Both the position numbers and the translations under genes were made by a program. A stretch of 35,035 nt of DNA, taken from a virus. Under the pieces are notes generated by a model. It did no database searches. It saw nothing but the letters and a program-made list of their open reading frames with translations, and had not been told where the DNA came from. This document shows positions 12,289 to 24,542 of this stretch, one piece after another; position 1 is the stretch's first letter; every line of letters begins with the position of its first letter. Where the stretch lies: the IMG/VR virus record IMGVR_UViG_3300032323_000829, positions 1 through 35,035 of that record; one strand, 5' to 3'.

Positions 12289-13614
12289 TTAGATTTTTTC
12301 ACCTCTTGTAAAGCCTCGGAAACGTAAGAACCTCGGAAACCGGAGGCTCCATACATCTTCGCTATCTTGGCTCCGAGTTGCTGCATCTGCACGGACTTCC
12401 ACGACTTGCCTAATGAGCGTATCTTTAGACTCCCAAAATTCTGCTCTCTGTTCGTCTGAAAGACCTGAACCAACATTGACACGAATGAACTTACCATCAT
12501 CTTCACCTTCACAGACCAACGCACCTAATTTGCCTTCGTTGCGACCGGTGCCTTCTTCTACAGCAACTACGGCTAGGCTAACTTCGATAAACGGTTTCAT
12601 CTTTAACCACGAAGTCGAACGCTTACATTCATATTTTGATTCTGGGTTCTTGATCATGATACCTTCAAACCCATCTTCAACCATTTTCTTGTTGTAGTCT
12701 TTGTATTCTACCTGCCCAACAAAGCTGTCAAGATCAACTTCAATTTGTGGGATAACATCAACATAGCCGACTTTGTCAAACACTTCTTGGAAAGTCTTAA
12801 GGAAGTTATGACGACGCTTCTGGCCCATGGTACTTTGACCAGTCTTAAATTCGCTGAGTGGAATGATATCAAACAACATCAATCGAGCATCACCTGCTTT
12901 GACATCGTCTTTGCGGTGTACTTGTTTCATAAGATCTTGAAAGCTCTTGCTGACAACTTCACCGTCCAGTACATAACTACGACCAAAACTTTCAAGGTGC
13001 TGTAGTAGTGCATCAGTGATGTGAGTAAAGTTTGACAGTTCTTTGCCGTTGCGAGTGTATTGTATTACGGTTTTGCTTTCATAATCAACGACAGTTAGGC
13101 AACGAACTCCGTCCAACTTAGGCTGTAGAATTCTAGTGCCTTCGATTTTAGTTTCGTGATTGGCTCCGTCGTGGGCCAACATACATTCAAACACAGGCAC
13201 TGAGTACTGTGTCTTTTTAGATTTCTTAGCTACGGTATTCACAGTCTTTTCAGACACGCCGCAACGCAAATCTTTAATAAGAATGCGTCGATAGAAATCG
13301 TTCCACTGTTCTTTGGTTGCTACATCCATAGCCAACTTGATAGCGTCTCGAGCAGCGTGTCCTGTAATCTGACGCTTGTACAAATGTTCAGCTAGCTCTT
13401 TAAAGTTATCCCAACTGAGTCCTTGTCCGCTGTCTTCTTCTTTGATAGGAACTTGCTTAACACCAAAGGTATAAAGTTTGTCCAGGGCCATCTTAACACC
13501 TTCAAAGAACTCATCGAGTCCCTCATCCATAGCATCTTTGATGATTGCTTCTTTGGCAAGGCGACTATTGTCTGCCTCAAGGCGTTGAATAATAACTTGT
13601 GGTTGTGTTCGCAT
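12289..13614 (-). CDS. ATP-dependent DNA ligase (T4 gp30-like)
   Basis: A 441-aa protein sealing nicks in phage DNA using ATP. It has an N-terminal helical domain (residues 1-about 155), then nucleotidyltransferase motif I QPKLDGVRC with adenylation Lys166, LDGEVVS (217-223, motif III), DGFEGIMIKNP (motif IV) and WLKMKP (motif V). An OB-fold follows, with EGTGRNEGKLGAL and the closing SLRFPRFLRFR. The length is near T4 ligase (487 aa). The start MRTQPQVII at 13614 is chosen because AGAAAGG precedes it; an upstream in-frame ATG lies within the preceding gene. It is coupled to the 57-aa gene before and the 79-aa gene after, all under the promoter at 13820-13848. Confidence 0.95.
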   Translation of the reverse strand: MRTQPQVIIQRLEADNSRLAKEAIIKDAMDEGLDEFFEGVKMALDKLYTFGVKQVPIKEEDSGQGLSWDNFKELAEHLYKRQITGHAARDAIKLAMDVATKEQWNDFYRRILIKDLRCGVSEKTVNTVAKKSKKTQYSVPVFECMLAHDGANHETKIEGTRILQPKLDGVRCLTVVDYESKTVIQYTRNGKELSNFTHITDALLQHLESFGRSYVLDGEVVSKSFQDLMKQVHRKDDVKAGDARLMLFDIIPLSEFKTGQSTMGQKRRHNFLKTFQEVFDKVGYVDVIPQIEVDLDSFVGQVEYKDYNKKMVEDGFEGIMIKNPESKYECKRSTSWLKMKPFIEVSLAVVAVEEGTGRNEGKLGALVCEGEDDGKFIRVNVGSGLSDEQRAEFWESKDTLIRQVVEVRADAATRSQDSEDVWSLRFPRFLRFRGFTRGEKI

Positions 13615-13615
13615 T

Positions 13616-13789
13616 TTAACCTTTCTTGTTAATCCAATTTGGATCCCACATGTCTTGAGCAAGATCCGGGTAATATAATTCTGCCGGTACTGTTACTTTT
13701 TCTACTTTGATTTGGGGCGGTGGTGCAGTTAGTTCATTGTAAGCGTTATTGGCAAATGCCATTAACCAAAGTGCTAAAACTGTGTCCAT
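13616..13789 (-). CDS. Small hypothetical protein (57 aa)
   Basis: A 57-aa frame, MDTVLALWLMAFANNAYNEL, then a Pro/Lys middle (TAPPPQIKVEKVTVPAELYY) and PDLAQDMWDPNWINKKG. The N-terminus is hydrophobic enough for a short signal-anchor. It is preceded by AAGAGGCAAG and a perfect promoter and ends one base before the ligase ATG, so it is the leader gene of the ligase unit. The family is not recognised. The promoter, RBS and tight spacing are the reasons to call it real. Confidence 0.75.
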   Translation of the reverse strand: MDTVLALWLMAFANNAYNELTAPPPQIKVEKVTVPAELYYPDLAQDMWDPNWINKKG

Positions 13790-15645: not shown

Positions 15646-15674
15646 ATTATACTGCCTTAAACACACTCTGTCAA
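15646..15674 (-). promoter_or_regulatory. Sigma-70-type promoter of the methyltransferase pair
   Basis: Minus strand: TTGACA (15669-15674), 17 bp, TATAAT (15646-15651), then 6 nt and ATG. The TGA inside TTGACA is the stop codon of the upstream HNH gene. Confidence 0.9.
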
Positions 15675-16183
15675 GCTAGATAATTTTCCCAGCTTGGGTG
15701 AGCAAAATGGAAACCACGTTGCTTACGCTTCTCAACTAAGTCCCAAAAGTGAGGCTTGTATGGAGTCTGTTTAGGTTTAAACTTGCCCACATGAGCTGCT
15801 TTACGGTAGTTACATGGCTTACATGCTGTAGTTGAGTTTTCCCATGTAGTCTTACCACCTTGAGAAACAGGATGCACGTGATCTAATGTAGCATTAGCCT
15901 CAGTGACTTCAGTACCACAGTATTGACACTGATACCTATCTCGCAAGAAGATATTGCGCTTGCTCATACGCATAGTGTGTTTTGGCTTTTGGTATTCTTT
16001 GAGCATGATCACGGCAGGCACCTGAGTTTCCCAACGAGCGGATCTCACAACCCAGTCGTCGTACCATTCCAAGACTTCGGCCTTGTCTAAAACCATATAG
16101 CGAATGGCCTCTTGCCAATCAACGACTGACAGAGGTAAAAGGCTAATAGGTTGCATATCTGCGTTTAAAAGTAGTGTGCTCAT
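15671..16183 (-). CDS. HNH endonuclease
   Basis: A 170-aa protein. Residues 1-75 (LLLNADMQPISLLPLSVVDW, DKAEVLEWYDD) are the N-terminal part common to a family of bacterial and phage HNH nucleases. The nuclease follows: CQYCG (Cys86, Cys89), TLDHVHPVSQGGKTTWEN with His102 as the likely catalytic residue and Asn116, then Cys121 and Cys124, so a structural zinc is bound. It cuts DNA using one metal ion; the target is unknown. A likely late promoter at 16209-16215 drives it. It sits directly before two methyltransferases, so it could be a restriction partner, a packaging-associated nuclease or a homing-type enzyme. Confidence 0.9.
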   Translation of the reverse strand: MSTLLLNADMQPISLLPLSVVDWQEAIRYMVLDKAEVLEWYDDWVVRSARWETQVPAVIMLKEYQKPKHTMRMSKRNIFLRDRYQCQYCGTEVTEANATLDHVHPVSQGGKTTWENSTTACKPCNYRKAAHVGKFKPKQTPYKPHFWDLVEKRKQRGFHFAHPSWENYLA

Positions 16184-16323: not shown

Positions 16324-16944
16324 ATGACCCTAGTCCCAATGGTAATTGAAACTACAGGCAAAGGCGAACGAGCCTATGATATTTACAGCCGCTTACTTAA
16401 AGAACGTATCATCATGTTGAATGGCCCAGTAGAAGATCACACAAGCAATCTCATTGTGGCACAATTGCTATTTTTAGAAAGTGAAGACCCCAACAAGGAC
16501 ATCAGCTTGTTTATTAACAGTCCCGGCGGATTAGTCACAGCTGGACTGGCTATCTACGATACGATGCAGTTCATTAAGCCGGATGTTGCTACCTATGTTA
16601 TGGGGCAGGCATGTAGCATGGGATCATTCTTAGCACAAGCAGGAGCTAAAGGCAAGCGTCATGTACTGGCAGAATCACGTACAATGATCCATCGTGTAAG
16701 TTCAGGCACTCCGGGCACACGTGGGTCAGTTCATGTACAAGAGTTACAGTTTGAAGATAGCAAACGTGCTTTTGAAGAAAGCCAGCGTATCAATCAACGC
16801 TTGACAGAACTTTATGTTCGTCACAATTCAGTGGGCAAGACCTATGATCAAATGTATGAGACTATGAAGTTTGATACATTCCTTTCAGCCAAAGAAGCTG
16901 TTGAATGGGGATTGGCCGATAAAGTATTAGACAAGCGTCCGTAA
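16324..16944 (+). CDS. clpP: ClpP serine protease subunit
   Basis: A 206-aa protein, about the length of E. coli ClpP (207), with the opening [20 protein letters not shown] nearly as in bacterial ClpP. The catalytic triad is intact: Ser98 in GQACSMGSF, His123 in RTMIHRVS and Asp184 in [12 protein letters not shown]. ClpP forms a double heptamer that degrades proteins fed by ClpX or ClpA; the phage subunit could form its own ring or mix with the host's. The triad is retained, but the loop after His123 ([14 protein letters not shown]) departs from the usual QPLGG, which may affect assembly or head-domain contacts. It has its own host-type promoter and its end overlaps the convergent ALAS gene by 18 bp. 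Confidence 0.95.
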
Positions 16945-18114
16945 TTTAGCTACTAATTCTTCCATCATAGCATCTGTGTGAAACGGAGTGGGCGCAAATC
17001 GCAACCGCTCCGTTCCTACCTCAACAGTAGGATAGTTAATACTCTGTACATAATGACTGTGTTCATTTAACAGCGCATCACTAATGGCCTTGCACTTAAA
17101 GGCATCGTTGATCATTACTGGAACGATGTGCGTGTTATTTTCCATTAATGGAATACCGTTATCTCTAAACAACTGTTTGAGTTTAGCCGCCCGTTCTTGA
17201 TGCTTAACTCTTAGATCGTTGTTGGCTTTGAGATATTTCACAGCAGCTAAAGCACCCGCACAAGTTACAGGACTCATTGACGTTGTAAAAATAAAGCCGC
17301 TAGCGATGCTTCGAACAGCATCTATAATGATCTTGTCAGCAGCAATATATCCACCCTGTACTCCGTAAGCCTTGCCCAGTGTTCCATTAACGATATCTAC
17401 TTGGTGTTCTAACCCCAGTTCCTCTAATTTGCCCCCACCATGTTCTCCATACAGGCCCACGGCATGAACCTCATCAACATAGGTAATGGCCGCATACAAT
17501 CTAGCTAAGTTTAGGATTTCCTCTAATTTACTAACATCACCGTCCATGCTATAAACTGATTCAAGTACTACACATGGGACATTGTTTCTAGAAATAACAT
17601 CTTCTAACTTGGCTTTTAGATCTGCTAGATCGTTGTGTTTGAAAATCTGCTTAGGAGCTCTGCTGTTTCTCATGCCCTCGATAAGGCTGGCATGATTCTT
17701 TGAATCTGAAACAAATTCTATCCTTGGAATAATCTTAGCCAATGCTACCAGGGTCCATTCGTTGGCCACATATGCTGAACTGAATAATAAAGATCCGGTT
17801 TTCTTATGCAATGTTGCTAGTTCATACTCTAGGGCAACGTGGTAATGACTGGTGCCCGCAATGTTACGAGTACCACCCGACCCCGCGCCTGTTTGATCTA
17901 GGGCTGTGTGCATGGCGTCGATGACAACTTTGTGCTGACCCATACCTAAATAATCGTTAGAACACCAATTAACGATATTTTTAATATTGTAAGGACCATA
18001 CCAAATAGCTCTGGGATAGTCGCCTCGCTCACGCAAAATGTCGTTAAACACACGATATTTGCCTTCGGATTTTAGTTGTTCGATCAGTTTATAAAAGGGT
18101 TCTTTGTTAATCAT
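16927..18114 (-). CDS. hemA: 5-aminolevulinate synthase (ALAS)
   Basis: A 395-aa PLP enzyme that condenses glycine and succinyl-CoA to 5-aminolevulinate, the first step of tetrapyrrole (heme) synthesis by the C4 route. It is full length. Visible signatures: GKYRVF with Arg21, the Arg that binds the succinyl carboxylate in bacterial [44 protein letters not shown] (His141); [21 protein letters not shown] (Asp214, His217); NGTLGKAYG with PLP Lys248; and the C-terminal [25 protein letters not shown] and Thr363/Arg370 favour ALAS over the related BioF or KBL. The Shine-Dalgarno is GGAAAG. It is a stand-alone minus-strand gene; its promoter is unclear. Confidence 0.95.
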
Positions 18115-18123
18115 AGCTTTCCA

Positions 18124-18130
18124 ATAAATA
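18124..18130 (+). promoter_or_regulatory. T4-like late promoter motif ATAAATA
   Basis: CAATAAATAC, 29 nt before the ATG at 18160, with a Shine-Dalgarno-like TTTAAGG in the leader. It lies in the 45-bp divergent gap between ALAS and the fibre operon. Confidence 0.6.
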
Positions 18131-18159
18131 CATGTTACTGCTATTTAAGGTTTTAAAAA

Positions 18160-18384
18160 ATGGATATTATTAAACTTGATGTTCCCACGTTTCTACGCTT
18201 GTTAGAGCTGGCCAGAGAAGATGTCAAAGATGACACTGATCTTCACGATATTGCTGAAATAGTCACAAAACTGAGTCAAAACGAAGTTGTTACTATGGAC
18301 AAATACAAAGAAATCCTGGCGTTTATGAAACATCAAGGCAAAGAAGACGAGCTTGACACAATTAGAAGATTAGGTGGATTATAA
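18160..18384 (+). CDS. Small helical protein preceding the giant fibre
   Basis: A 74-aa acidic all-helical protein: MDIIKLDVPTFLRLLELARE, DDTDLHDIAEIVTKLSQNEV, then FMKHQGKEDELDTIRRLGG. It is probably a compact helical bundle. The stop overlaps the start of the 2052-aa fibre by one base (TAATG), so it is coupled with it and may be a fibre assembly or regulatory partner. No known motif is recognised. Confidence 0.8.
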   Translation: MDIIKLDVPTFLRLLELAREDVKDDTDLHDIAEIVTKLSQNEVVTMDKYKEILAFMKHQGKEDELDTIRRLGGL

Positions 18385-21300
18385 TGGCAAAACAAGAAAT
18401 TAATTTAGGATCAGCGCCAAATGCCGGTGATGGTGATCCGTTACGTACCGCGTTTAATAAGATAAACGAAAACTTTGACGAACTGTATAACAGCACAGGA
18501 GGTCTTGATTTATTAAACGTAGCATCAAATGTTATTCCGGCTACTGATAATACCTACGATCTAGGTAGTCCATCAAAACAATGGCGTCACGTTTATACCG
18601 CAGGCGGCAGTATCTACTTAGACAATATCAAACTTACCAACGTTGACGGAAAGTTGGTTGCTACTAAAGTTATTAATCCGGGCGAAGAAAACGAAGCAGA
18701 AGATCCAGAAGATTCAGATGCTACTAGTGAAATTGGCGGCGTGGGCAGTGGCCTAACTAGTAACGATGACATCACTATCACAGTCAATAGTGAAGATAGC
18801 AGTAGCTATACTTGGAACTTTGGACAGACTGGTTCGCTAACTGCTCCCGACGATATTATAGCAGGCTCCATTGGCGAAGGTGGTAGATTCATACAAGACT
18901 GTGACAATGGCACGAGCAGTATGCGTTGGATCAATGTAACAATCAATGGAGATGGAAACACCGAGCTTATTCGAGCCTATAGTGGTGATCCAGATGGTGA
19001 AAACGAAACTGGCAGAGAAAGAGCACAGGTCTCCGTAAACTGGCAAGATGACTATCAAAGTGGATTGACTATCAAATCGTTTGACCGCACAAATGTAAAC
19101 AGTACAGTTGAACATGATTGGCAATTCCAAGGCGACGGTAGCATAAAATTCCCAGACAACACAATACAGACCACAGCCTACACTGGACAAACCAGTGGCG
19201 GTAATACAGCCGCAAGATATGTTGCTGTAAACTACGATGGCGTCATCTACGGTTCCACAGACGGTGAGAACTGGACATCATATACCAGCACACTGGATAG
19301 CATTGGTCGAGTGGCTGTTGGCCCTACCAATATTGTTTATACTGCGGATAGAAGTGTTGGCAATGGCCAATCACTATGGTATGCCTCCGCTTATAACTCC
19401 GCTCCTACAGAAGTAGCACCTGCTGAAAATGTACAAGAAGAATATAATGAAGTAAAATATTTCAGCAGTATTGGAAAATATGTAGCAGTGGGCAAAGTGG
19501 TCGAAGGCAACAGTTTTCCAATATTACTACACAGCAGTGATGGCGTTACTTGGACTCGTTCTTATGTCTCTGAAGAATTTATAGCACAAGTTAGCCTTAC
19601 CGGCAGTGCTGAATTCGTAGACATCGCTGAAAACGATCTAGGATTTTTTATCATCTCAGACAGTAGTACTTGGGGCGGATTCTTCCTTGAAAACATCACA
19701 GACGCTCTAGACGCTACAACCAATGTTGAGCAGGCAGAATCCGATTGGGAGGAAGTGGTTTGGGTAGAAACAGCCGCTGAAGGTCTTAGAGGATGGCATG
19801 TATTTGACGATGATGAAGATTGGCGCTTCAACGCAAATGAAGATCCTAGAGTGGGTTCGTTTGAGTACTTTGCCGTTGAAGATTTAGATCCTGAATTTGA
19901 AGCGGCTGTGGGATATGACCCAGATCCATCAGAAATAGTTGTAGGCGAATACGACGGTGTATCAACTATTGTCATAGGCACTGGTGATGGTCAGATCATG
20001 TATTGGCCAGCAGAGCCAGCAGATCCAACCGTAGTGATTCCTAAACCTTACACATCCAGTATCAGTGATATTATTCGCGGAACAACTACAACAATCGAAT
20101 GGACTGGTAATCGTGGCCGTCAAGGCGACGGTGAAAAGATTGTTATCACAGGAGTGACCACTCAAGAAGGCGAACCAGGAACTACTAATCAAAGTTATAA
20201 TGGCACATATTATATTAAGCAAGTTGGCGACGATTCTCCTTACACATACGAGTTATACACGGATCAAGCATTAACCACACCGTGGAACACTATCACATAT
20301 TGGCCAGTTAATACCAACACTGGTACAATAACTTGGAGTCACGGACAATACATTGATGCCCTACACTACAGTAATGGCGTATTCTATATGGGCAACGATG
20401 ATGAAGAATTCTTTATATCAACTGACGGTGGAGCAACTTGGACTGAAACAGATTCATTCCCAGGTGGCGAAGGCGAGGAAGGCGGATTCATCAACGACAT
20501 TGACTCGTATGTTACTCCAAGTGCTGAAACTGATAGATTAGTCAGCGGCAGCAAACAAGTTATACTTGATACTGATGGTGATTTAACTATTCCAGGAAAC
20601 ATTAAGAGCGAAGGCAACATCAATATTGAAATCAATTTAAGTGATAGTACTCTGCGTAGATGGCAATTTGGGGAAGATGGTAATCTAACCCTACCAACAG
20701 GCGGAGACATTTTAGACAGCAATGGCAACTCAGTATTAGGCGGTGTTACGGGTGATAGTAATGTTTGGGTACAGACATTTGAATCAGTTGAAGGCGCTCC
20801 AGACGATGTGGTTGCGGCCGCGATGAGCGTGGAGTATGATGTTGAAGGTAATCTCATCTGTTTGTTTAGTCACGCAATAGACTACACTAATCCTTTTGGC
20901 GGTACAGGCAGTTATTTCTCAGTGGCCAAGATCTCCACCACAGGCACAATCCTATGGCAAAAAAGACTTGGCGCGGGCACCTACACAGACGGATGGGGCC
21001 TAGCAGTAGACAGTAATGACGGTAGCGTTTACATCGCAGGCAGTGACCGTCTTGACAATGAATCACAAGATTCTGACGCCATGTTGACCAAGATTGATTT
21101 GGCTGATGGCGGCTTTCAGTGGAGCAAGATTTATCGAGCCACCGGCATAGATTCATCCATTATGTCTGGCCAAAGCCCAGTTGTAGATGTGGCCAGCGAC
21201 GGTAATCCTGTTATGGTTGGTTACCTTGAAGATGGTTCCAGACAATACATCGCAACGACCAAAGTTGACAGCACCGATGGTTCCGTAATTTGGAGTAGAA

Positions 21301-24300
21301 AATTTGACGGCCAAGGCTATGACTACGCATACGGTATGGGTGTTGGCGCCAACGGTGACGTGGTCACTGTGGGCTATATAGATCAATATACCAGTGTTGT
21401 AGATTCATACTCAGTAACACCACAGACTGGCAGCGGTGTAGAAGTATTGGTCATCAACAGAAGTGATTTGAGCAATGATACATTTACCACCAGTTGGAAA
21501 GTGGCGGGCAGTGGCATCACTGGCTACGCAGATGTAACATTCATCAACAGTTATTCAGGTTTGACTAGCACAGTTCAAGAAGGTAGTGGTGCTACATTTA
21601 ATGTAACAATCGCAGGTGATGGGTCAATTGCTAACCCTGTGACTGTTGCCAACGGTGGCTCAAACTATCTATCAGGACACAAGATCAAAATACCATATAC
21701 CGCAATTAGTGGGGCAGATCTTAACTCAGATATTATTCTTACTGTCACCGGAGTTGATAGCGGTTCAATTACCAGCGTGGCTGCAGGATTTTACGGTAGC
21801 GGCGCAGGAACGCCAAATACATATAATGGAGTAGCAGGCACTAACTATCAAACTGGTTCAGGATTAGTATTCAATCTGGCCCTTGATTCTGGCAGCACCT
21901 ACACAGAACATCCGTATGCGTTCCAAAACGCGGGCGCAAACTATGTTGACGGAGATGTTGTAGTAGTTCCTGGAACACAGTTAGGTGGTACCAGCCCTGC
22001 TAATGATTTAACCGCAACTGTTTCAGTCACAGACGGCGGTGCTGTCACAACATTTAATAGTTTTGCAGGAACCCAACAGACTTCAACCTACAGAATTTTA
22101 GTATCAGAATCAAATGTGGACTTTGGCGCAGATGGCACTTGGACTTTAAACGAAGTAGATATTGACTCTAACGACCGTATGTTGGTTGTCAAGTACAACA
22201 GCTCGGGAGCAATACAGTGGCAGAAGGCCATACAGTTTGACGATGGATACGATTGTGGCGGAGCAGACTGCGACATTGACAGTGCGGGCAACATCTATGT
22301 AACAGGGCAATATAACAAGACTAACGAGCCAGGGGTTGCGTTAAGTATCCTTAAACTTAACAGTAGTGGCGTGGCACAGTGGAGCAGACGAGTAACAGGC
22401 AACTGTGACACATCTGGCACTAGCATTGTAGTTGGGGCAGATGATTGCCTATATCTATCGGGCATTACTGGTATTGAAAATCCCAATGAAGACGGGGCAC
22501 CTTACGCAGACATTCACTCAGTGTTGGCCAAGTACAGCACAGCCGGCGCGGTGTTATGGCAACGCCTGTTGGAAAATTCATCAAGTTGGAGTTTTACTGG
22601 CGCATTTTTTCAAGCAGGTGCCAGCAATCTAGCAGTCAAAGATGGCTATGTGGCACTGAGTGGCGGCTACGGAGATTTTGACAGTACTACATTTTCTGCT
22701 TCAGTTGCTCAGGTCAGCGCAGACGGCACAACATTCTCTGTGGGAGAATGGGACTTTGTTGCATCTAACTTTAGTGGCACATTCTTTGACGATGCCAGCG
22801 ACCTCACAGTAGTTGATGCTGACAAAATTGATACAGACTTCAGCGGTGACATTACTGTCACTGAAGGTGCAAGTATGGATCCCACTGGTAGCGATTTCTT
22901 GATAGGCACTGTATACAGAGAAAGTGGCGCTGATGATAGACTGGTCAACGGTGTTAACCAACTGGTATTGGGATCAACAGGAACTGTGACATTGCCACAA
23001 GGCGGCACAATCACAGAAGGCACGGTTACCAGCAATCCAACTATTCAACTAACTCCTGATAATCCAACTGTGGTCAGTCAGAAGTTGGTGATCAAAGGCG
23101 GTGGTTCGTACTCAAACACAGAAAACGGTATTTACTTATCCACCAATAACATTACTTGGGCAGTGTCCGATACTGTTGAATTTAATGTGTACGATTCAAC
23201 CCGTGCTAATGAAACGCTCTACTGGTGGATTGTGCCTGAAGGAAGCGGCATATCCACAACAATGTCAGGTACGGTAGCGTTGGATGGCATCGGTGACGGT
23301 AATTTTACTTTCACATTAGACAGTGACGCTTATGAATTTAGAGTGCGTGTATCACCTGAAGAAGATAACTACGATCCTGCGAATGTAGGTGTTGAATCAG
23401 TATTGATCAACGGCGACGCACCCGCATATGGTGATCATCACTTACACTTGACCACAGGTGATTTAACAGAAACCAGTATCTTTCTGGGCACTGACGATCA
23501 CAATGTGCGTACTACCACTGACGGTAAGATACAGATAACCACATTTGTGAACTCGTACACTGTTAACAACGTTTGGGAGTTTGGCACAGATGGTAGTTTA
23601 ACACTGCCAGATGGTGCTCCAATATTGTTTGGCGGTAATAACTGCCGCATACAAGCGTTACAGGCTTTTAGCATCTCCAGTGACGGAGGTATTGCAGTAG
23701 AAGTAACTGATAAACAATGGTTGTTTAGTTCAGATGGTACTCTGACACTCCCAGATGACAGTGGTATTAAATCCTCTACCAACATTGACATCACCATAGA
23801 CACTCCGGACAGCAGTACATTTAATTGGCGATTTGGGGCGGATGGTAGTTTAACATTCCCCAATGGTGAAACATTTAGTAATGGGCAGATAACAGCAGCC
23901 TCGGGAGGCGATGCCGCATTAGCAGATAATACCAATAATAATTTTATTTGGGTCGATAGCAATGGTGCGTATATTGAAACAGACGACGAGTTTGAACATA
24001 CCTGGACATTTGGCACAGACGGTAATTTAACATTGCCAGGCGATATCCGCAGTGAAAACGCTATCAACATTGACATCAACTTATCAGACTCAACACTACG
24101 CAGATGGACATTTGGTGAAGATGGTAACTTAACTGTTCCTGGTGACATTGTTGATAGTAACGGTGAAAGTTTCTTAAAAGATATTCCGCAAAACTTTCCA
24201 ACAGGATACAATGAGGGAGTTTATGTTTTACAAGCCAGTGATCGTGGTCGTCATATTTTAATCGACGGCACTGAAGGTAATTCAATAATAGTGCCAACAG

Positions 24301-24542
24301 ATGCTTCAGCACCAATGCCCATTGGATCTGCCATAGTGTTAGTGATTAAACCTGGCATGTACAGTATTGTTGTTGGTCCCGAAGACTCCGACAATATGAC
24401 GATCCACGGTGCTGGAGTTAGTTCTGTCGGGTACTACGAATTAGGTGCTGGAAATGGCGGTGCTATGGCCACACTGGTTAAAATAGGCGCCGACGAGTGG
24501 ATGATATCCGGCACTGGTTTAGCAGAATGGGAAGGACCATAA
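18384..24542 (+). CDS. Giant tail fibre / adhesin with beta-propeller
   Basis: A 2052-aa virion protein. The N-terminus (INLGSAPNAGDGDPLRTAF, NKINENFDELY) is a known phage virion-attachment type. Eight copies of a WxFGxDGxLTLP-type motif lie near residues 143, 246, 758, 1731, 1779, 1815, 1874 and 1906, and the flanks around 745 and 1893 (INLSDSTLRRW...DILDSNG) are a duplicated block. BNR-like SSDGVTWT and STDGGATWT occur near 385 and 680. SBBP-type propeller repeats (TGTILWQKRLG, AVDSNDGSVYIAG) cover about 816-1005 and 1256-1396, split by a region of about 250 residues with repeated YxxGDxxxxP...LGG modules. The last 115 residues form the distal domain. It probably forms a long host-binding fibre. 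Confidence 0.88.
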   Translation: MAKQEINLGSAPNAGDGDPLRTAFNKINENFDELYNSTGGLDLLNVASNVIPATDNTYDLGSPSKQWRHVYTAGGSIYLDNIKLTNVDGKLVATKVINPGEENEAEDPEDSDATSEIGGVGSGLTSNDDITITVNSEDSSSYTWNFGQTGSLTAPDDIIAGSIGEGGRFIQDCDNGTSSMRWINVTINGDGNTELIRAYSGDPDGENETGRERAQVSVNWQDDYQSGLTIKSFDRTNVNSTVEHDWQFQGDGSIKFPDNTIQTTAYTGQTSGGNTAARYVAVNYDGVIYGSTDGENWTSYTSTLDSIGRVAVGPTNIVYTADRSVGNGQSLWYASAYNSAPTEVAPAENVQEEYNEVKYFSSIGKYVAVGKVVEGNSFPILLHSSDGVTWTRSYVSEEFIAQVSLTGSAEFVDIAENDLGFFIISDSSTWGGFFLENITDALDATTNVEQAESDWEEVVWVETAAEGLRGWHVFDDDEDWRFNANEDPRVGSFEYFAVEDLDPEFEAAVGYDPDPSEIVVGEYDGVSTIVIGTGDGQIMYWPAEPADPTVVIPKPYTSSISDIIRGTTTTIEWTGNRGRQGDGEKIVITGVTTQEGEPGTTNQSYNGTYYIKQVGDDSPYTYELYTDQALTTPWNTITYWPVNTNTGTITWSHGQYIDALHYSNGVFYMGNDDEEFFISTDGGATWTETDSFPGGEGEEGGFINDIDSYVTPSAETDRLVSGSKQVILDTDGDLTIPGNIKSEGNINIEINLSDSTLRRWQFGEDGNLTLPTGGDILDSNGNSVLGGVTGDSNVWVQTFESVEGAPDDVVAAAMSVEYDVEGNLICLFSHAIDYTNPFGGTGSYFSVAKISTTGTILWQKRLGAGTYTDGWGLAVDSNDGSVYIAGSDRLDNESQDSDAMLTKIDLADGGFQWSKIYRATGIDSSIMSGQSPVVDVASDGNPVMVGYLEDGSRQYIATTKVDSTDGSVIWSRKFDGQGYDYAYGMGVGANGDVVTVGYIDQYTSVVDSYSVTPQTGSGVEVLVINRSDLSNDTFTTSWKVAGSGITGYADVTFINSYSGLTSTVQEGSGATFNVTIAGDGSIANPVTVANGGSNYLSGHKIKIPYTAISGADLNSDIILTVTGVDSGSITSVAAGFYGSGAGTPNTYNGVAGTNYQTGSGLVFNLALDSGSTYTEHPYAFQNAGANYVDGDVVVVPGTQLGGTSPANDLTATVSVTDGGAVTTFNSFAGTQQTSTYRILVSESNVDFGADGTWTLNEVDIDSNDRMLVVKYNSSGAIQWQKAIQFDDGYDCGGADCDIDSAGNIYVTGQYNKTNEPGVALSILKLNSSGVAQWSRRVTGNCDTSGTSIVVGADDCLYLSGITGIENPNEDGAPYADIHSVLAKYSTAGAVLWQRLLENSSSWSFTGAFFQAGASNLAVKDGYVALSGGYGDFDSTTFSASVAQVSADGTTFSVGEWDFVASNFSGTFFDDASDLTVVDADKIDTDFSGDITVTEGASMDPTGSDFLIGTVYRESGADDRLVNGVNQLVLGSTGTVTLPQGGTITEGTVTSNPTIQLTPDNPTVVSQKLVIKGGGSYSNTENGIYLSTNNITWAVSDTVEFNVYDSTRANETLYWWIVPEGSGISTTMSGTVALDGIGDGNFTFTLDSDAYEFRVRVSPEEDNYDPANVGVESVLINGDAPAYGDHHLHLTTGDLTETSIFLGTDDHNVRTTTDGKIQITTFVNSYTVNNVWEFGTDGSLTLPDGAPILFGGNNCRIQALQAFSISSDGGIAVEVTDKQWLFSSDGTLTLPDDSGIKSSTNIDITIDTPDSSTFNWRFGADGSLTFPNGETFSNGQITAASGGDAALADNTNNNFIWVDSNGAYIETDDEFEHTWTFGTDGNLTLPGDIRSENAINIDINLSDSTLRRWTFGEDGNLTVPGDIVDSNGESFLKDIPQNFPTGYNEGVYVLQASDRGRHILIDGTEGNSIIVPTDASAPMPIGSAIVLVIKPGMYSIVVGPEDSDNMTIHGAGVSSVGYYELGAGNGGAMATLVKIGADEWMISGTGLAEWEGP

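Follow-up and report, generated by a model that had tools for sequence, protein, structure and literature searches.

Does a phage carry a working entry-step enzyme of tetrapyrrole synthesis and, if so, for what use and in which kind of host? The question is raised by a 35-kb linear virus contig of metagenomic origin in IMG/VR, which was analysed over its whole length of 35,035 nucleotides (the window) and was initially annotated as encoding 5-aminolevulinate synthase (ALAS). Viral ALAS is already known as a kind, with function demonstrated for a relative: Wegner et al. (2024, Nat Commun, PMC11480375) described viral alaS genes ('valaS') on contigs of marine and freshwater phages, and their main text reports that the CB_2 vAlaS complements E. 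coli lacking gtrR (an ALA auxotroph) and makes ALA. Together with the at least 469 pattern-matched IMG/VR stretches that our search of viral contigs found to encode ALAS relatives, this publication leaves the initial remark that an entry-step enzyme is uncommon in phages without support. The explanation that best joins our results, and which we consider very likely, is that the window encodes a working ALAS of the vAlaS family on a large T4-like, freshwater-type phage, probably expressed late, and providing extra tetrapyrrole for heme enzymes and, in relatives that carry them, for bilin genes.

Identity and conservation of the enzyme

The gene in question is

16927..18114, minus strand: ALAS (vAlaS) gene, 395 aa, identified by its ORF, TIGR01821, PDB entries 7x98 and 2bwn, residues and tree

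The reading frame is complete and without interruption, and the plus strand of the same interval is riddled with stops. Against TIGR01821, the NCBIfam equivalog model for 5-aminolevulinate synthase (EC 2.3.1.37), the protein scores 557.6 bits where the curated cut-off is 338.55. Models of the sister families were scored alongside, and all fall below their cut-offs: bioF (310.5 versus 426.45 bits), the two models for glycine C-acetyltransferase or KBL (305.4 versus 460 and 242 versus 493 bits), serine palmitoyltransferase and autoinducer synthase. Among solved structures, the nearest are likewise ALAS (7x98, E 2e-128; R. capsulatus 2bwn, E 1e-120), with an identity of about 52-53% over 380 residues, and at ~52% identity the predicted ALAS fold is in no doubt. 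The claim of a full-length ALAS is thus borne out. The PHROGs collection has no family for the protein.

In R. capsulatus ALAS numbering, the residues of the PLP, glycine and succinyl-CoA sites (R21, N54, T83, N85, S137, H142, S189, D214, H217, T245, K248, T365 and R374) are all present in the window protein, and these 13 are invariant across 104 of 104 viral relatives. The initial list of key residues needs one correction: the residue given as Arg370 is an arginine, but the equivalent of the substrate-binding Arg374 is Arg372. T83 and N85 are of ALAS type and are replaced in E. coli BioF and Salmonella KBL.

The best 104 of the 469 viral relatives are 70-87% identical to the window protein, and among cellular proteins the nearest are ALAS of Alphaproteobacteria, with 51-58% identity. 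A tree of 95 proteins places all 50 viral rows in a single clade (SH-aLRT 100) apart from alphaproteobacterial ALAS, with the window protein in a seven-member subgroup inside it. Very long branches set the BioF of E. coli and the KBL of Salmonella apart from the ALAS rows, so that the window protein groups with ALAS, as the initial annotation expected, and not with BioF or KBL. Among the 64 pairs of viral relatives with usable divergence, dN/dS has a median of 0.038 and a maximum of 0.116; from these low estimates the enzyme is judged to be maintained by strong purifying selection. With dN/dS of ~0.04 among relatives and ~52-53% identity to solved ALAS, the predicted reading frame is not a chance product. 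The window ALAS is real, intact and under selection, and ordinary within the recently described viral family. The superfamily fold is common to all alpha-oxoamine synthases and KBL and BioF do match the protein, though with lower scores, yet a KBL, BioF or other such synthase wrongly labelled ALAS is highly improbable and nearly refuted, judged from the failed sister cut-offs, an ALAS cut-off exceeded by >200 bits, the retained T83/N85 and the position of BioF and KBL in the tree.

GenBank phages in INPHARED, a collection that may omit records closely similar to the window, gave only matches of 26-35%, none of them ALAS-looking. Those with annotation are BioF or KBL, and some of the records resemble bacterial DNA. 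KBL/BioF-type enzymes are matched as well by several short or odd unannotated 'phage' records (Listeria, Staphylococcus, Salmonella), which have the look of contaminating bacterial DNA.

The initial annotation also proposed that the viral enzyme is not feedback-controlled like the host's copy. According to the main text of Wegner et al., the His342/Cys400 pair for heme inhibition in R. capsulatus ALAS is missing in many vAlaS (PMC11480375). The window protein has Lys340 at the position of His342 and no C-terminal Cys, and His342 is absent in 104 of 104 viral proteins. However, it is also absent in 99 of 110 bacterial relatives and present in 11, these 110 being the ones closest to the viral proteins and not an even sample. 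Loss of His342 is therefore no viral hallmark, a lost feedback site was rejected as evidence of a viral adaptation, and the proposed escape from feedback cannot be deduced from the missing residues. This corrects a tempting argument, since missing heme-site residues do not separate viral ALAS from most of the sampled bacterial relatives.

Phage genome and gene order

ALAS is surrounded by genes for an S74-chaperone tail protein, a tail-fibre protein, a phage-type DNA ligase, an HNH endonuclease, ClpP and two DNA methylases. The features that recur among relatives are

12289..13662, minus strand: ATP-dependent DNA ligase of phage type (phrog_114, 324.7 bits; PF01068), in 64 relative loci
15671..16183, minus strand: HNH endonuclease (PF14279/PF01844), in 94 of 104 relative loci
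16324..16944, plus strand: ClpP protease (PF00574, 215 bits), convergent with ALAS, the 3' ends overlapping by 18 bp
18160..18384, plus strand: small conserved gene of 74 aa, without a family, divergent from ALAS
18384..24542, plus strand: very long tail-fibre-like protein of 2052 aa, without a Pfam match

When 37 window genes were tested, 25 had relatives in a 364-kb T4-like record (G001), and for 22 of these 25 the relatives are clustered in one 42-kb stretch at 316-358 kb. The T4-type gp23 capsid protein is encoded in this record and in two other long related records. The placement of ALAS on a phage genome is upheld by this clustering and by the surrounding tail genes. The contrary reading of host DNA or a chimera could appeal to the metagenomic, linear nature of the contig but is nearly refuted, with next to no chance of being right, by a gene order that dozens of independent viral contigs share, by the 22 of 37 genes found in one stretch of a gp23-bearing T4-like record, and by the phage-type ligase and tail-fibre genes that flank ALAS.

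The recurring order in relatives is tail gene, small 18160-type gene, ALAS, ClpP, HNH and ligase. In 62 of 104 relatives, no more than 3 kb separates ClpP from ALAS, the 18160-type gene adjoins ALAS in 53 of 104 (median gap 45 bp), and homologues of the 2052-aa tail-fibre-like protein are found upstream of ALAS in 23. An alternative arrangement has no ClpP at this place, with SNase, HNH and AlgH downstream of ALAS. Viral ALAS is thus a syntenic, maintained gene of a common large-phage lineage and not a stray capture. The interval between ALAS and ClpP looks like a cargo hot spot, being empty (as in the window) or filled with an SGNH-like protein, a cupin or an ADP-heptose-type block. In four loci (L019:11185-14124, L022:2208-5162, L050:11188-14130 and L068:7761-10715), it contains a cupin and four ADP-heptose-synthesis-like genes (HAD phosphatase, cytidylyltransferase-like, PfkB kinase and epimerase).

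Several other genes were observed on these genomes. Amid its tail genes, the window encodes a subtilase-family protease (PF00082, 8417-9949) that has a homologue in 0 of 104 relative loci and a weak, non-collinear one in the 364-kb record. It also encodes a phage-borne AlgH/YqgE-like protein (PF02622, 11238-11807), for which 45 of the 104 related loci have a counterpart. In the 364-kb record, 31 tRNA genes were called (at 232111-237855 and 339529-339603), including tRNA-Glu and a tRNA with anticodon CTA, labelled tRNA-Pyl, that is a possible amber suppressor. Curli-like genes at 283585-285852 (CsgA/CsgB-like repeat protein, CsgG-like lipoprotein and CsgF-like protein) were recognized in the same record by eye only.

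Expression, host and tetrapyrrole use

The 45-bp gap before ALAS contains late-promoter-like motifs in both directions, the positions of which shift among relatives. In the window, the features upstream of the start codon are

18117..18122, minus strand: putative Shine-Dalgarno-like GGAAAG before the ALAS start codon, read from the sequence
18124..18130, plus strand: divergent late-promoter-like motif ATAAATA towards the 18160 gene, from motif conservation
18142..18148, minus strand: T4-type late-promoter-like motif TTAAATA towards ALAS, from motif conservation

Among 72 distinct upstream regions of relatives, TAAATA towards ALAS is found in 70 with 5.7 expected from base shuffles, and the reverse-facing motif is likewise found in 70 with 8.7 expected. 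Over the whole window, HTAAATA is not over-represented (16 observed versus 21.5 expected); several copies lie 11-35 bases before genes, including tail genes and ALAS. Given the conservation of the late-promoter-like motif, we infer that ALAS is probably expressed late along with the tail genes.

The predicted active enzyme, of the vAlaS family and encoded on a large T4-like freshwater-type phage, would accordingly be transcribed late from this motif, and the extra tetrapyrrole would support heme enzymes; in relatives that have the genes, it would also feed a phage heme oxygenase and bilin reductase. As to the host, the ClpP of the window has its best matches, at 56-60% identity, in Pseudomonadota without ALAS. 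None of the 24 genomes with the best ClpP matches has ALAS, compared with a base rate of 127 of 398 in an even sample of Pseudomonadota genomes (p 7e-5, with related genomes not independent). These matches weakly suggest a source or host with the C5 pathway, and the ClpP gene may be an old acquisition.

A finer version of our best explanation is that the phage infects a C5-pathway host, in which a foreign one-enzyme Shemin route would evade the host control point and spare charged tRNA-Glu for translation. The ClpP matches (0 of 24 against 127 of 398, p 7e-5) speak for it, as do the own tRNA-Glu of the 364-kb relative and the proposal of such a bypass for non-alphaproteobacterial hosts in the main text of Wegner et al. 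(PMC11480375). However, ClpP ancestry is a weak host pointer at an identity of at most 60%, closely related genomes among the 398 are not independent draws, and ALAS itself descends from alphaproteobacterial-type ALAS, so that we hold this version tentatively, at somewhat less than an even chance. A possible but rather doubtful alternative is an alphaproteobacterial host with an ALAS of its own, where the viral copy would only add capacity or remove control. It agrees with the alphaproteobacterial ALAS that are the nearest cellular relatives and with the assignment of the published vAlaS phage CB_2 to Methylocystis in the same main text (PMC11480375), yet the viral clade has at most 58% identity to any alphaproteobacterial ALAS found, with no sign of recent host uptake, and ClpP points instead to Pseudomonadota without ALAS. 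The CB_2 phage belongs to the large freshwater pmoC-phages, and HSP20 is common in those and their relatives (PMC7674155). AmoC/PmoC (PF04896), searched for as a link to methanotroph phages, was detected in 0 of 33 related records, but control genomes were equally silent.

The 33 longer related records were also surveyed for heme oxygenase (PF01126) and bilin reductase (PF05996), which are present in 12 and 11 of them, respectively. Both genes occur in seven of the eight longest records, side by side or close together, at a distance of 29-69 kb from ALAS (in contig coordinates, with a 353-kb record treated as circular). In the nearest of the near-complete relatives (84% identity), 40 kb separate them from ALAS. 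In nearly all such records, the block has the order Hsp20-ClpS-(small gene)-HemO-bilin reductase; it is seen in the hemO loci L186-L202 and at 287018-289329 of the 364-kb record, where a DnaK gene then follows. Neither gene is found in the window, a 35-kb fragment, nor in one 185-kb relative, and ferrochelatase (PF00762) was detected in 0 of 21 records with controls working. Pelagiphage Mosig has heme oxygenase and bilin reductase as well, in a different setting. A gene of Pelagibacter phage Mosig (MT647606.1, 43207-43977; L261) is annotated 'putative ferrochelatase', and the Pfam ferrochelatase model matches nowhere in that record with positive controls.

These genes modify what was initially suggested about tetrapyrrole use: heme for respiration stays as one of several uses, but the longest relatives add heme oxygenase and bilin reductase. 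Part of the tetrapyrrole flux may thus go to bilins or iron release. Whether this is the main purpose, with ALAS refilling heme and respiration secondary, is questionable, though conceivable: the conserved block in seven of the eight longest records and the closest near-complete relative with both genes argue for it, and the absence of both from the window and the 185-kb relative against it. ClpS was considered as a tetrapyrrole-specific partner and dropped, because it is also found in jumbo phages such as PA5oct and Atu_ph07; to our knowledge, ClpS occurs in large phages with no known tetrapyrrole genes. Its placement beside heme oxygenase may be positional only.

A further joint reading, which we regard as unlikely, has a C5-only host that is given a Shemin route expressed late with virion genes, fronting a distant heme-to-bilin branch beside ClpS, and has phage ClpS and ClpP that could remove host glutamyl-tRNA reductase. 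Its host and its late timing are supported to some extent, and the Clp step is speculation. Glutamyl-tRNA reductase is a known Clp substrate in plants. It has reportedly been linked there to ClpS-dependent degradation (e.g. PMC6597238). For the vAlaS-family enzyme of our best explanation, we infer timing, flux and benefit, and the interpretation offered in the initial annotation is overall partly supported.

Relation to known systems

To the published account, this analysis adds large-phage synteny, strong purifying selection, late-promoter-like motifs, and a distant heme oxygenase and bilin reductase beside Hsp20/ClpS, by which viral ALAS is connected with genes for heme degradation and bilin synthesis elsewhere on the genome. 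It sharpens a testable question, namely late tetrapyrrole redirection by these phages and in which kind of host, and phage tetrapyrrole use should be easier to test from three links, to late-phase transcription, to the distant bilin block and to a host that may use the C5 route. Within the open-access literature, the results and discussion of the vAlaS paper (PMC11480375) note no HNH neighbourhood, late-promoter-like motif, bacterial count of the heme-site residue or ClpP-based host hint, and its main text does not mention a ClpP, ClpS and Hsp20 context.

As described in the main text of that paper (PMC11480375), vAlaS are encoded on aquatic myovirus-type phage contigs, have ~55% identity to alphaproteobacterial ALAS, form a viral clade apart from bacteria and are missing the heme-site residues, all of which is similar to what we find here. 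The same text reports valaS that stand alone or lie apart from the hemO and bilin reductase genes, the latter as in those longer relatives of the window that have both, and proposes uses for vAlaS in alphaproteobacterial and other hosts. In contrast to that account, bacterial relatives too can lack the heme site, and the protein assayed there, from CB_2, is different from the window protein. With alphaproteobacterial ALAS (2bwn; 7x98), the window protein shares the enzyme family, the PLP lysine and the residues of the glycine and succinyl-CoA site, while it differs in its identity of 52-53%, its place on a viral branch of its own, the Lys in place of R. capsulatus His342 and the lack of a C-terminal Cys. 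Like ho1, pcyA, pebS and pcyX of cyanophages and pelagiphages, viral alaS is a tetrapyrrole-acting gene in T4-like phages; those genes act downstream on heme, whereas ALAS is the entry step.
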